Shown here: positions 58,395 through 64,000 of the stretch, one piece after another
How the letters are laid out: each line of letters begins with the position of its first letter
Position numbering within the stretch: the stretch's first letter is position 1
Origin: Lactifluus volemus
Lineage: Eukaryota > Basidiomycota > Agaricomycetes > Russulales > Russulaceae
DNA length: 64,000 bases
Direction: 5' to 3'
Assembly: GCA_022376515.1 (NCBI GenBank)
Contig: WTXI01000003.1
Location: forward strand, 930,001-994,000
Translations under genes and position numbers: made by a program
Notes under the pieces: model-generated
The model's database searches: none
Seen by the model: only the letters and a program-made list of their open reading frames with translations
Told to the model about the DNA's origin: nothing

Positions 58395-61300
58395 CTACAA
58401 GAATTGTCGAATTCTTTGCATCCCTGTGGGTTTTTCGAGGGTGTCTGTCTCATCTGTCTCTTCCAGGGATGGAATTCCCTGAAAGTGTCTCAGTGTCTCA
58501 GTTGTCTGGCAACAGAAAGGAGTGACTCACAGTGACGAAATCCAGTTGCGATAAAGGGATCTGGGGTTACATTTGGGCGCTCTGTTAGGTGCGACATTCC
58601 AAAAGACAACGCACGATCTTTGTCTTCTTATACATCTTCCAACCGAAGAACAAGAGCGTAAAGACCGGCAGGTTTATATCTTAAACCATGGATATCTATT
58701 AACCATGGAATGCATAATTGAGTTGGGTGGCGCACGTACATGCCGCAACGAAGTCCGGGCCATTGAAATGCCAAAATACCGATAAGCCACTTACGAGGAT
58801 GAAAAAAATCGACCTGCCAACAGCGTCATGATCTATATACGTAAAATGGAGCATACAGCCACGTACCAAAAGACCACATACATTCCAGCATAGGGCTGGA
58901 ATATGGAACGGTAGGCAATATTTGTGTCATGCCGTTCCAGACCCTGAACTTTCAGTCCATAATCTAGGAAGGATGTCATCCATCAGGATTTTCACAATTT
59001 TCTTGTCACATCTTGTCTCTCTTGTCACATCTTGTCAACAGGCTCCCACAAGCTCTAAAAAGCTCTAAAAAGCTCCTACAAGACCGACAAGTGGACAAGA
59101 CACAAGAGCCACAAGGTAGGTATGAAATCGCACAAGATGGTCAGATATTTGTGCATATAAGACAAAACAAGTGCACAAGACGACAAGTGCACAAGATGAC
59201 AAGGCAAAAAAGATCAAAATCATGGTATTATATTGGTAATACTCTACCACACAGTACACAAATCCAGTGCCATTCTGACCACAGGCAAATAGTTGTCCCA
59301 TTGCACTGTATTTCGCACTAGCGCTTATACAGGAGAAAATTGCTCCGATCGACTGCAACGCGACTAAGATCCATCCCACACCGAATCAGGTGCTGCTGAC
59401 GTATCTGTCGCCATCGCCATGGACAAGCACAGGCCGCTCTGTAATGGGTCAGGTGGTGACGAGAGGGTGTCGGGCCACTAGGACCGATCGGCCTGGCAGG
59501 GTTTTTGTCTCTCTTGTCTACAGCCCGCCGGGCTCCCCTGTCCCACCATTGATCGCTCGCGCAGCATGCCCCACTCACCAGTTAGAACTTGAAATAGATG
59601 TGGAGTGCAAAAAGGCAAGTAGCGCACCTTCATCGAAGCCTCAGACAGGACAAAGTCAACCTCTGGATGCCGCATTTCCATATGTTCTTGGTACTTACGC
59701 AACTCGTCGATTCCCTTTTGGGAGCATGAAGATCGCAACGCAGCTGACTGCATTGTACTCGGCCTGAACGTCTGCGTTGCGTCGCCGCGCCGCAACCTTT
59801 TCGTTCTCGCCTTCGCGCGGGGTGAATTTGCTCGGATCCGGAAGAGGTTCTAAATCAACAGCCACCAACCACCACCATCAATGGGCTTACAAGGGAAGTG
59901 AAAAGCGGGGCAAAGGACGCACTCGGGTCGACCTCCCCAACGCCACCGCCCACGCTTGCAGAACACGTACACGGAGACGACGACCCCGTCCCCTGTCCAC
60001 CATAGCTAAGAGTGGCAAAACGAGGGGGCGAGCGCGGGCTGCCGACACCTGCGCCAAAGAGCTTCTTCGAAGCCAGCGATAGGGCGCGTGAGAGAGCGTT
60101 TGTCGCGGAGCGGCCCATCGGAATCAGTACGCCACTGTGGCTCGGTGGTGGTGGGAAGGTTGGGCCAGATGGTGAGTCCGGTGAGAGGTGAGGCAGAAGA
60201 TCAGGGAGGCGCTTCTCATCGTTGGCAGAGGCAAGCATCGGCGGTACGTGGCGGTCAAGGAGAGGCCGACGCCGGGTTGCATTGATCTCTGTGGGATGGT
60301 CTGATTTTCTGAAGACTTTGGTATGCATTAACATATTTACCGTCCACTACCCGATTGAATTCGACAGCTTCTACAAGTACATACTCCCTACGGAGCAAGC
60401 AGTCCTCTTCTGTCTCCCTTGAAGTGCGAGACTGCAGCCATAGTTGGACCTTGTTGAGCAAGAAATGAAGCCTGGGTGAGTTCAGGACGCCGCCTCACCT
60501 TTGGTCAGATAAACGGCACTAAAGGGGAATGGTCAGAGAACGTATGGATGAAAAAAATATACCACTAACTCAGAAGGTTACAATTTTCGAACTGCACTGG
60601 GGGTGTTGACACATTTTCGACCAGTGACCAGGGGAAATAGCAACAGCGAGAAGGGTGAAGGAAGCGAAGGTAGGCTCAAAAGAGCGGTAAGCCTTTCTCT
60701 AAGTCGTTCGAAAAAAAAATGTCGTACGATTTTAATTTCCCACACGAATTTGAAAGTTCAACTTAGCCACCAATGGCAGCAATACTAACTTGCTCAACCA
60801 TGCCCTTCCGAAGTGGGGTCCTTGTCAACTTGCATTCGGGAGTAAGTCACCACCTGGCATCTTGTATATGATGTTAATCAGCCTCCCACAGACTCAATTG
60901 AGTATGACCAAGGCAGAAAGAGAACTCGTGTTTCTGTGAGTCTTATGTTTGCTCTGTATTTTCTTTTTTTTTTCAGACCAGTTTTGAAAGATCGTCCCAT
61001 TCCACCTGTCGCTGAATCCTTTGGCGTGAGCACCTGGCAGGTGCCTTTCCCGTCCTGGCAATCCATCATCCCACAACTTGCGTTTTTCTTCGTTTTTGAG
61101 GACATGTTCCATTATTTCTGTTCGTTGGTTCCTGCTACATTTGGCCTTTTTTTCCCCCCAGTCCTTGCTAATCTTCGTGTATATATTCTCACAGCTCATC
61201 AACTTCTTCACACATCCTTACTCTACAAACCTATCCATGAGCTCCACCACAAATATTCTGCGCCTTTTGGCCTTGCTGCCATGCACGCACACCTGGCAAT

Positions 61301-64000
61301 CAGGAAGGGCCATCGTACGAGCTTTTGCACTGGATTGGACCCAAGGTGCGTTCAGCCTCGTTGGCTCGCTTGCGTGGCAAAAGGTGTGATCGTCACTGGC
61401 CGCCGTTTTCTTTGGCTATGACACGGATCGTGTGTGCAAGGATCTGGAATATGCTTCTCGAGGTCTGCGTTCGTTCCGGAGCGTCGGCGATTCGAACGTG
61501 AGCTCCTTGAGCTTATGCATCAGCGAGTCCCAGCGGTTTGAAAGAAGTTGGCCAAAAGGGAAGAGCACCGCGAGACAAAAGTGCGAATGGGACCACGAGC
61601 ATGATTGACGAAACGAAACGTTTGGACTGTTCAGTGATCGCGACAGGGATTGGTACGGTCGTAGCTACTCGCCCAGTGACAATTGTGACCGCTATGGCGT
61701 ATAGGGTCCGCGAAAAAGACTATCGTGACGACTGCTCCCAGGACTTCGACCGTGATCGCCTATTGTGATCGATCGCATTCTCGGAGGGTAACTACGACCG
61801 TGAACACCCACGATCCTCTCCTGTGGCGGCGGTCTTTCCATCCCCGCCACCGCCTCCTGCCCGCACACTAGTGGTGCTTCCAAACTGTCCCCGGCACCCA
61901 CCCCTCTCCCGAGCAAGTCTCCCATGTCGAACGTTCAGAACATGACTCCAGAGGAGCGGCACGCTATTATCCAAGCTGAGGCGCAATGCCGTACTGTGGA
62001 GCGCATGGCTGAGGACCTGAGGCCAAACTTGCAGGACACCTCGGCTGGTGAATGTTGAACATTGAATGTGTGAGACCATACACTACTAGCACTCAGAATG
62101 TGAATACAAAGTAGTTACAAAATTTTTAGTAACTTGTCATCTTGTCGCTCTTGTTGAGCTTGAAGGTCTCGCCAGCTTGTTGACAAGCTGTGACAAGATG
62201 TGACAAGCCTTGACAAGCTGAAAAGCCCACAAGAAAGCTGTTATCTTGCTGATGTCATCTGGCGGTCGTCATGTGAAAAATATGCCCACAGAATCGAAGA
62301 TAGGTGACGCCAATCATCAACCAACTGGATAAAATGGACACATTAATCGGGTCTACTGGGCGAGATGGGCATGACACTCGTACTTGAGGAGGCTTCCAAC
62401 CGCGCCTCACGATCGTGTTCAGTCCATGCGATAAACCGAAGTCGTGAGAGTGGCTCACTCAAATTGACAAACCAACTGAGGCAAGATCAGACCCTGCCTT
62501 TCTCGATACAAAAAATCACCTACTTGAACACTTTACCAGAACTGTTGCTGACATTCAGGAAGGCAAGAAATGAAAAGAGGCCCTGAATACATCACGAGTC
62601 GGTATGCATTTCTAGCTGGTATGCTCATGTTTGGCGTACGGCTGTGATGATAGCGACATAGGGCACGCCATTGTGGGACAAAGTAGTGATAAAGTTTGGG
62701 GCATGGCCTTGCACACCGAGCGCAAACAGTAATCTCGACGCCGAGTACAACATGCCATTCGCAGATGAGAAAGCACTTGTCAGGACGACAGCATTCACAA
62801 TATGAGGGAGCACTGAAAATACGAAACGTTCAGGGAATGAACGGGTCGCATTGAATAGGTACCGACCTTTCACGCCTGCCCGGTTAAAAACAAGCACGAA
62901 CGGCGATTGGCCCGCGTTGCCTGTTTTTCTGGGCGAGGGCTGAGAATGGTTAAACTTCGAAGAATGACAAGACCGACTTGAAAAGTTGTGGATCGTTGGA
63001 TGGTATGAGCATCCCAACAATCAGGCCAGTAAGGACCTGCACGGAGATTAATAGATGAAAGATAGAGAGCAACTTATACAGGATTCACGTAGCAGACGAA
63101 GATGCGGAAGAAGACCGTACGCATGGCAGTAATCATATTCTTCCGTGGATAACGTGTTTCTGCGGCAGCGCTAGTCGAAGAGTGAAGTTAGACACGACAA
63201 TTAGACGAGAGGTGTACAAACAGTGTGATGATTTCCATCCCGCACATTGCGAACGCGGCGTATATTATCCCAAGAAGAAGGCCCAAAAACCTGCCCGGCG
63301 CTCCCGGCTCGAGAGCTATGGGATCTGTGTATCAGTGGCCAGCATTCAGAACCATCAGACGCAGCTCACAAGAGACGAGCGGGCCTGGGTGTTTCCAGTA
63401 CTGTAGTGGGTGAGCCAAGGAGGTGTTCCAGAATGATCTCCTTACCTCAAATCCGTGACTATTGGCGACAAGGTTGTTATCAGTTGAACAGGTTGTGAGT
63501 TAAGTAGTGACACAGCGGACCGGGTGTGATCAGGACCTCCGCCAAGGTTTATGACAAGGCCACCAATGATCTGTAGCAGATGGAAGTTAACGAAAGTTGG
63601 GATAAGTGGTAAAATATGTACATACCAAGCCGACCACAAGCATGACTGCGAGATATCAGCAACTCGGATCGAATTGAGCCAAATGGCCTACGTTTCAAGG
63701 TAGCAAAGACAACCTCGGCTAGATACGGCCCTTAGCGATAGGAATACACTGGCACTTCACGAAGCTCACTGTTTCCGAAAAATCTTATTTTTGAAACCAA
63801 GTAAGAAGGGTAGGCACCTGAATAAGTGGACCGACCTTAGACCAAGGAGATTGACAGAGTACACGGCAGCAATCAAAACTGCGACATAAATAGATACGTG
63901 CTTGGCCTGCACCTAGGTTAGGTTCGGAGGTTTGCCACGAGACGAGGTCATACATCATGGTCCCAAAAACTTATTAATACGGCCGCAGCAGTTATTTCTG
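58395..64000 (-). CDS. amino-acid permease (Gap1/Put4-like), 5' end outside the window, with a 3.3-kb intron
   Basis: Reading from the window edge down: ITAAAVLISFWD, VQAKHVSIYVAVLIAAVYSV (63840-63900), IIGGLVINLGGGPDHTR, DPIALEPGAPGRFLGLLLGI, IYAAFAMCGMEIIT, NPVLTGLIVGMLIPSNDPQL, HIVNAVVLTSAFSSANGMLY, SASRLLFALGVQGHAPNFIT, HNGVPYVAIITA, NVSNSSGKVF, WFVNLS and SWLMIGVTYLRF to the donor at 62289. The next coding block starts at 58963, with YYGLKVQGLERHDTNIAYRS and IFQPYAGMYVVFW, then NLPVFTLLFFGWKMYKKTKI, IPLSQLDFVT and GIPSLEETDETDTLEKPTGM, stop at 58395. The junction TYLRF|YYGLKVQGLERH is exactly the family sequence, so the gene may still be spliced and functional. The remaining introns are small. 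The C-terminal exons are pieced together by hand. Confidence 0.85.
58972..58980. repeat. target-site duplication, left copy
   Basis: gatgtcatc, identical to 62251-62259; lies 8 bp inside the permease intron from its acceptor. Confidence 0.8.
58994..59215. repeat. CTTGTC-rich left subterminal region
   Basis: Contains cttgtcacatcttgtc twice near its outer end, then a series of gacaag, acaagac and gcacaaga units in the opposite sense further in, plus a tandem of agctctaaaa. The mirror arrangement occurs at the right end of the element. Confidence 0.7.
59600..60461 (-). pseudogene. ATG1: captured fragment of autophagy kinase ATG1 (regulatory region and start of C-terminal tMIT domain)
   Basis: Minus-strand blocks in order: LLRREYVLVEAVEFNRVVD, FPPPPSHSGVLIP, NALSRALSLASKKLFGAGVG, PLPDPSKFTPREGENEKVAA, RRRNADVQAEYNAVSCVAIF and KGIDELRKYQEHMEMRHPEV, DFVLSE. 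This is the region of basidiomycete Atg1 between the kinase domain and the C-terminal tMIT domain, and the first part of that domain. The kinase domain and the protein's end are missing, frames shift (for example a stop after VVVGGC and a -1 near 59715) and the piece lies wholly inside the mobile element. It is in the sense direction of the permease transcript. Identification rests on remembered family sequence. Confidence 0.75.
60801..61345 (+). pseudogene. ERG25: captured fragment of C-4 methylsterol oxidase ERG25
   Basis: Plus-strand exons give IPPVAESFGVSTWQVPFPSW, QSIIPQLAFFFVFEDMFHYF, joined across an intron (acceptor near 61199) to HQLLHTSLLYKPIHELHHKY and SAPFGLAA. HxxxH and HELHHKY are part of the di-iron His clusters of the fatty-acid-hydroxylase superfamily; the FGVSTWQVPFPSW block points to Erg25. 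Short upstream exons (60801-60935) are tentative. The sequence loses homology after AAMHAHLA: the expected AEYAHPAE with the last His cluster is altered, and the N-terminal half is absent. It lies inside the mobile element, opposite in direction to the permease and the ATG1 piece. Confidence 0.75.
61320..62057 (+). pseudogene. third host-like fragment in the element, Arg/Asp-rich, unidentified
   Basis: Pieces in different frames look protein-coding: YELLHWIGPKVRSASLARLR, RRFERELLELMHQRVPAV, KKLAKREEHRETKVRM, FSDRDRDWYGRSYSPSDNCD and MSNVQNMTPEERHAIIQAEA. The composition suggests an RS/RD-rich nuclear RNA-binding protein, but I do not recognise which, and the pieces may come from more than one gene. 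Stops and frame changes prevent a product. Confidence 0.4.
62137..62240. repeat. CTTGTC-rich right subterminal region
   Basis: Read on the minus strand it begins with cagcttgtcaaggcttgtca and catcttgtcacagcttgtca, the counterpart of the left end, then gacaagatgacaag further in. Repeated short units, not one continuous inverted repeat. Confidence 0.7.
62251..62259. repeat. target-site duplication, right copy
   Basis: gatgtcatc, identical to 58972-58980; lies 30 bp inside the permease intron from its donor. Confidence 0.8.

Follow-up and report, generated by a model that had tools for sequence, protein, structure and literature searches.

An intron of a general amino-acid permease gene in Lactifluus volemus contains an insertion of 3274 bp which, judged by sequence comparisons within a single assembly, is very probably a non-autonomous DNA transposon of the Plavaka type carrying acquired fragments of host genes, and hence a Pack-TYPE element of the Plavaka superfamily. 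The genome (62.4 Mb, 628 contigs) provides a clean case, in that donor genes, transposase-encoding relatives, and both filled and empty sites are found together; the window, by which we mean the whole 64,000-nucleotide stretch analyzed, corresponds to C223:930001-994000. The initial annotation, made from the window alone, had described the insertion as a Pack-MULE, but the ends of the element, its target duplication, and its transposase partner are all those of Plavaka, and the Mutator-like identity is not upheld.

A permease gene with one enlarged intron

We aligned the minus strand, with a spliced-alignment script of our own, to residues 33-550 of the 550-residue Russula general amino-acid permease P0002. 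The resulting gene has 28 introns, and 517 residues are aligned, 436 of them identical, with neither frameshifts nor stops; a TAG follows immediately after the last residue aligned. Twenty-seven introns are 45-62 nt long, and the remaining one, at 62289-58964, is 3326 nt. The earlier observation that the permease reading resumes across this gap, with a GT donor and an AG acceptor, is therefore confirmed by the alignment to P0002, as is the intact reading that underlay its description as a possibly working host gene. The gene and its enlarged intron are placed as follows.

58395..64000, minus strand: general amino-acid permease gene, continuing beyond the window as far as an in-frame ATG (~64789, identified by eye)
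58964..62289, minus strand: permease intron enlarged by the insertion, 3326 nt here and 50 nt in the empty site

With a different template, P0001, a frameshift appeared at 64286; we rejected it, as it lies in residues absent from P0002 and is gone in the P0002 alignment. We note that the public model for this permease, P0030, is short at both sides, and that the insertion may have misled its annotation.

Copies of the element share exact ends

A genome search with a 300-bp left-end query and a 351-bp query stopping 4 bp before the right end identified at least five full copies, which are the window copy, C223:1320262-1323556, C51:14510-17806, C423:48749-52046, and C556:1228859-1232115 (minus strand), together with partial copies on C233 and C34. 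All five full copies start with CATCAGGATTTT and end with TGTTATCTTGCTGATG, and the flanking bases diverge immediately outside, giving the following borders in the window.

58981..62254, plus strand: transposable element, 3274 bp, with termini CATCAGGATTTT...ATCTTGCTGATG and sharp identity borders in five full-length copies
58981..59230, plus strand: left terminal region with many CTTGT/ACAAG repeats, its first 230 bp 91% identical to an element on C2 with a Plavaka transposase
62005..62254, plus strand: right terminal region, likewise with many CTTGT/ACAAG repeats; the C2 element matches its last 62 bp at 89% identity

There are 16 CTTGT/ACAAG motifs in the left terminal 250 bp and nine in the right, compared with a mean of 0.57 and a maximum of 5 per 250-mer among 5000 random 250-mers of the window; subterminal repeats of this sort are typical of CACTA-like elements. 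The C223:1320262, C51, and C423 copies are each 98.4% identical to the window copy over aligned bases, and the C556 copy is 90.6% identical to it; 17 substitutions in 2949 gap-free element columns are private to the window copy. Additional copies with the same ends and with 9-bp flanks had been anticipated; four more full copies do have the same ends, but 9-bp flanks are present at none of 11 insertions (see below).

A further region, C596:484303-494384, has a left end matching the family of the window element, and its right side matches too, not to the very end; it contains a 951-amino-acid open reading frame that resembles a Copia-type polyprotein.

Empty sites and the 2-bp target duplication

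Elsewhere in the genome, the 3′ part of the permease is matched once, at C227:20440-21007, and here the site is unoccupied. When the element and one TC are removed, the window matches C227 with 992 identities in 1000 positions and no gap, and the permease intron in the empty site is 50 nt long. This unoccupied site in the same assembly, together with the exact ends shared among copies, bears out the proposal that a DNA transposon inserted into the permease intron, although not the 47-bp parent intron proposed along with it, as the 9-bp model predicts an intron 3 bases shorter than the empty site shows.

We consider it unlikely that C227 is a collinear duplicated segment rather than the other haplotype, which would make the empty site paralogous and not allelic. 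Two places ~11 kb apart on C227 are collinear with C223, at 95-99.6% identity, as would be seen in a leftover haplotype contig, and the site is unoccupied under either reading. As a separate observation, C227 (43 kb; region C227:20301-23200) appears to be a second haplotype of C223 that was left uncollapsed, and some of the small contigs may likewise be alleles.

The C51 copy provides a second empty site, as it sits within a repeat of which other copies, on C275 and C301, lack the element. Joined with 2 bp removed, the C51 flanks align without a gap over 798 bases to both C275 and C301, with 4 mismatches each, and a gap appears when 0 or 9 bp are removed (the values tried were 0, 2, and 9). 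The repeat forming its left flank (C51:14110-14509) matches at least 40 other sites with 82-100% identity, many on C17, C301, C623, and C6. An empty site was also sought for the C423 copy, where the flank matches end ~50 bp before the junction.

Target duplications were tallied for the 11 insertions with both ends known, comprising the five full copies, the elements on C598 and C2, and four elements of a related family (see below). The two flanks agree over 2 bp in 10 insertions, over 3 bp in none, over 5 bp in one (the window copy), and over 9 bp in none; mismatched flank pairs, used as a control, share 2 bp in 12 of 110 comparisons. The sole full copy without a 2-bp duplication is C223:1320262-1323556, with AG on one side and TA on the other, and we found no second genome match for its left flank. 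In the window, the duplication and the longer repeat that overlaps it are as follows.

58979..58980, no strand: TC, left copy of the 2-bp target-site duplication (C227 empty site; 2-bp duplication in 10 of 11 insertions)
62255..62256, no strand: TC, right copy of the 2-bp target-site duplication (same evidence)
58972..58980, plus strand: left copy of gatgtcatc, all host sequence and present in the empty site too
62251..62259, plus strand: right copy of gatgtcatc, in which GATG is the element end, TC the duplication, and ATC host sequence (GTC in the empty site)

The two copies of gatgtcatc, 3270 bp apart, are indeed present, and had been interpreted as a 9-bp target duplication. That interpretation does not hold: all five full copies end in GATG, which is therefore part of the element. 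The repeat appears to be 9 bp long because the host also happens to read GATG just before the site, and because the agreement of the window flanks happens to run on from TC to five bases (TCATC). The match also depends on the A at 62257, where C227 has a G; this is the one base beside the site that differs between filled and empty forms. At the 10 other insertions, no more than three of the nine bases preceding the element are the same as in the string formed by GATG and the 5 bases that follow it. The 9-mer occurs 1199 times in the genome (622 + 577; 709 for the reversed control), such that a chance pair is unremarkable after the fact. The 9-bp duplication of gatgtcatc is a coincidence, and illustrates a trap, in that the transposon end can supply half of a perfect 9-bp repeat seen at a single insertion.

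The base beside TC, A in the filled site and G in the empty one, counts against the 2-bp reading. A 5-bp duplication of TCATC accompanied by a 3-bp loss also gives the observed length; it invokes more steps than a 2-bp duplication of TC, which we prefer.

Relationship to Plavaka transposons

As described in a 2025 study of fungal elements, PlavakaB elements have termini CATCA..TGATG and duplications of 2 or 3 bp (PMC12730594). The termini 5′-CATCA..TGATG-3′ are present in the five full copies, in the C2 and C598 elements, and in the four second-family elements read, and the duplication is of PlavakaB length, being 2 bp at 10 of 11 insertions as well as at the two empty sites.

The Plavaka transposase domain, PF18759, has 168 matches in the genome. 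An 8609-bp element at C2:273804-282412 (minus strand), with ends of the same type whose left 230 bp and right 62 bp are the segments compared above, contains open reading frames matching PF18759 positions 1-102, 100-168, and 242-325. A second element, at C598:26293-38607 (12,315 bp), has less similar ends of the same type (70% and 74%) and PF18759 matches inside; these contain stops, and the C598 element is thus probably dead. Among 36 right-end matches, PF18759 lies within 10 kb on the inner side in eight and on the outer side in none; this tally used 78 of the 168 PF18759 matches, with 72 others each lying within 3 kb of a used one, and the C2 element is outside the 36, its right end having been located separately. 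The 28 right-end matches without a nearby PF18759 are expected of non-autonomous copies, and are no proof of a partner. None of the five full copies contains PF18759 among the 150 of 168 matches listed.

The ends, the duplication length, and the transposase found between same-type ends all point to Plavaka, a CACTA-related superfamily, as the probable affiliation of the element, and "Pack-Plavaka" would be an apt name for the non-autonomous, gene-fragment-carrying Plavaka at 58981-62254. The KDZ group (Kyakuja/Dileera/Zisupton), which the end motifs had suggested, was rejected because the transposase found is that of Plavaka and because the duplication lengths differ, those given in the same study being 7 bp for Kyakuja and 8 bp for Zisupton (PMC12730594).

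That the element is a Pack-MULE, of Mutator-like type and with a target duplication of 9 bp, is now highly improbable. Pack-MULE target duplications are 8-10 bp, typically 9 bp, in keeping with the perfect gatgtcatc at both ends of the window copy; host-gene fragments are present inside, and MULE domains do occur in the genome (PF10551, 23 matches). However, none of the 10 other insertions has a 9-bp duplication, the GATG before the right flank belongs to the element, the C227 empty site is 3 bp longer than the 9-bp model allows, the 36 right-end matches have none of the 23 PF10551 matches within 15 kb, and it is a Plavaka transposase that lies between same-type ends. The empty sites of the window copy (on C227) and of the C51 copy refute the Pack-MULE reading, and we reject it on these, on the 2-bp duplication, and on the absence of MULE domains near the 36 right ends. 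The window element is like Pack-MULEs in having gene pieces within a non-autonomous element, but it has neither their 9-bp duplication nor a Mutator transposase partner.

Captured host-gene fragments

The description of the insertion as a non-autonomous element with host-gene pieces is well founded: there is no PF18759 within it among the matches listed, and two pieces are recognizable as ATG1-like and ERG25-like.

59577..60421, minus strand: ATG1-like gene piece, in two joined blocks (59577-59924 and 59919-60421) with 89% and 94% identity to C201:212466-213443
60934..61293, plus strand: C-4 methylsterol oxidase (ERG25-like) piece, apparent intron included, with 85% identity to C334:1380372-1380727

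The ATG1 piece has matches on C201, C63, and C46, of which C201 is the one compared in detail. This candidate donor has open reading frames that score above cut-off for PF12063 and PF21127, the ATG1-like MIT domains; a comparison of the candidate donor reading frame with solved structures gave no match. Between the two ATG1 blocks of the window copy, 100 bp of C201 sequence are absent, and the same 100 bp are absent from three sisters (C223:1320262, C51, and C423). The copies on C556 and C233 retain them, with identities to C201 of 96% over 777 aligned positions and 94% over 994, respectively, and the C556, C233, and window copies end at the same C201 base, 213443. We also note that the ATG1 piece is continuous in the older C556 and C233 copies, and that the edges of the sisters' 100-bp deletion carry a short repeat.

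The C334 donor protein, assembled from hand-joined open reading frames, resembles C-4 methyl sterol oxidases, with matches of up to 87%, and also matches L. volemus P0124. The ERG25 piece starts at the same donor base in all six copies, with only 130 bp of it retained in C556. Both donor and element have an apparent intron, read by eye, between the stretches coding for FEDMFHYF and AHQLLHT, which places the capture at the level of DNA and not of spliced RNA. The five full copies and the partial one on C233 share the outer boundary of the ATG1 piece on one side and that of the ERG25 piece on one side, which suggests that capture preceded the spread of the element, and pieces have been lost from copies since capture. 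Smaller stretches of the element match other loci at 76-95%.

We propose that a Plavaka transposase supplied in trans would bind the CATCA/TGATG ends together with the subterminal CTTGT/ACAAG repeats, excise the element, and reinsert it through cuts staggered by 2 bp. The host fragments would have been acquired as DNA before the element multiplied, and the 100-bp ATG1 deletion would have followed in the branch that gave rise to the window copy and its three nearest sisters. In the permease, the element landed in the 50-nt intron. It is well documented here that an unusual element was inserted by an ordinary mechanism.

Consequences for the permease gene

Fungi recognize short introns, and on this basis reduced or failed splicing of the 3.3-kb permease intron is plausible; function may come from the empty permease allele. 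The permease could also be a decaying pseudogene, with the insertion saying nothing about splicing or selection, a possibility that we rate at somewhat below an even chance. The 3.3-kb intron is far beyond the 45-62 nt of the other 27, and the annotated L. volemus permease protein P0030 (254 amino acids) ends before the insertion; both speak for decay. The open reading over all the residues aligned to P0002, and their high identity, argue against decay, although the insertion is too young for this to prove selection: with only the 17 private substitutions noted above, it is so recent that an unselected gene could still be open. The locus provides a natural test of whether a short-intron fungal gene can splice a 3.3-kb intron.

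Relationship to known gene-capturing elements

The window element is non-autonomous and has host coding DNA between transposon ends, which is what characterizes Pack-TYPE elements. Gene capture by fungal transposons is already known. Helitrons are rolling-circle elements without inverted ends or target duplication, and those that capture genes in Pleurotus ostreatus are another example of gene-fragment capture in a mushroom.

The Pleurotus Helitrons are described in PMC4289320. For Pyrenophora tritici-repentis, PMC3538342 reports that a hAT element transduplicated a histone H3-like gene and that a Tc1/Mariner element transduplicated genes; as here, a fungal DNA transposon multiplies gene sequence between its ends, but the superfamilies are different, complete open reading frames are involved, and the host is an ascomycete. 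Plant Pack-CACTA and other Pack-TYPE elements, as presented in PMC8903248, are similarly non-autonomous, use the ends of CACTA-related autonomous elements, and contain fragments of more than one gene; the window element differs in being fungal, in its Plavaka ends, and in its 2-bp duplication, that of CACTA (EnSpm) being given as 3 bp in PMC12730594. The PlavakaB elements of Agaricomycotina in the same study share the CATCA..TGATG termini, the 2-bp duplication, and the presence of PF18759 in larger same-end elements, whereas the window element lacks a transposase and carries host-gene fragments, the published elements compared here being with or without a TET/JBP gene (PMC12730594).

A limited search of open-access text (titles and partial abstracts) found no report of a gene-capturing Plavaka, and no paper on transposable elements in Lactifluus volemus was found in open-access text. 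If our interpretation is correct, gene-fragment capture extends to the Plavaka superfamily, which has received little study despite its abundance in mushrooms.

A second family of gene-fragment-carrying elements

The L. volemus genome has at least two such families, one with the ATG1 and ERG25 pieces (five full copies) and a 3.5-kb one with other pieces. The latter, also non-autonomous, is represented by a 3479-bp element at C223:809184-812662 with Plavaka-type ends, the right 149 bp of which are 80.5% identical to the window element. The family has about 12 listed copies at 97-99% identity, one of them in two pieces, and all three non-autonomous copies read have 2-bp duplications. We lean slightly toward the broader view that Plavaka is a general gene-fragment shuffling system in Russulales, the fungal counterpart of plant Pack-CACTA. 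A relative of the second family on C556 has the same ends and carries PF18759. Parts of the second family match other loci, for example C46:17339-17620 at 93%, where an open reading frame weakly resembles PQQ-type beta-propellers (Pfam, below cut-off).
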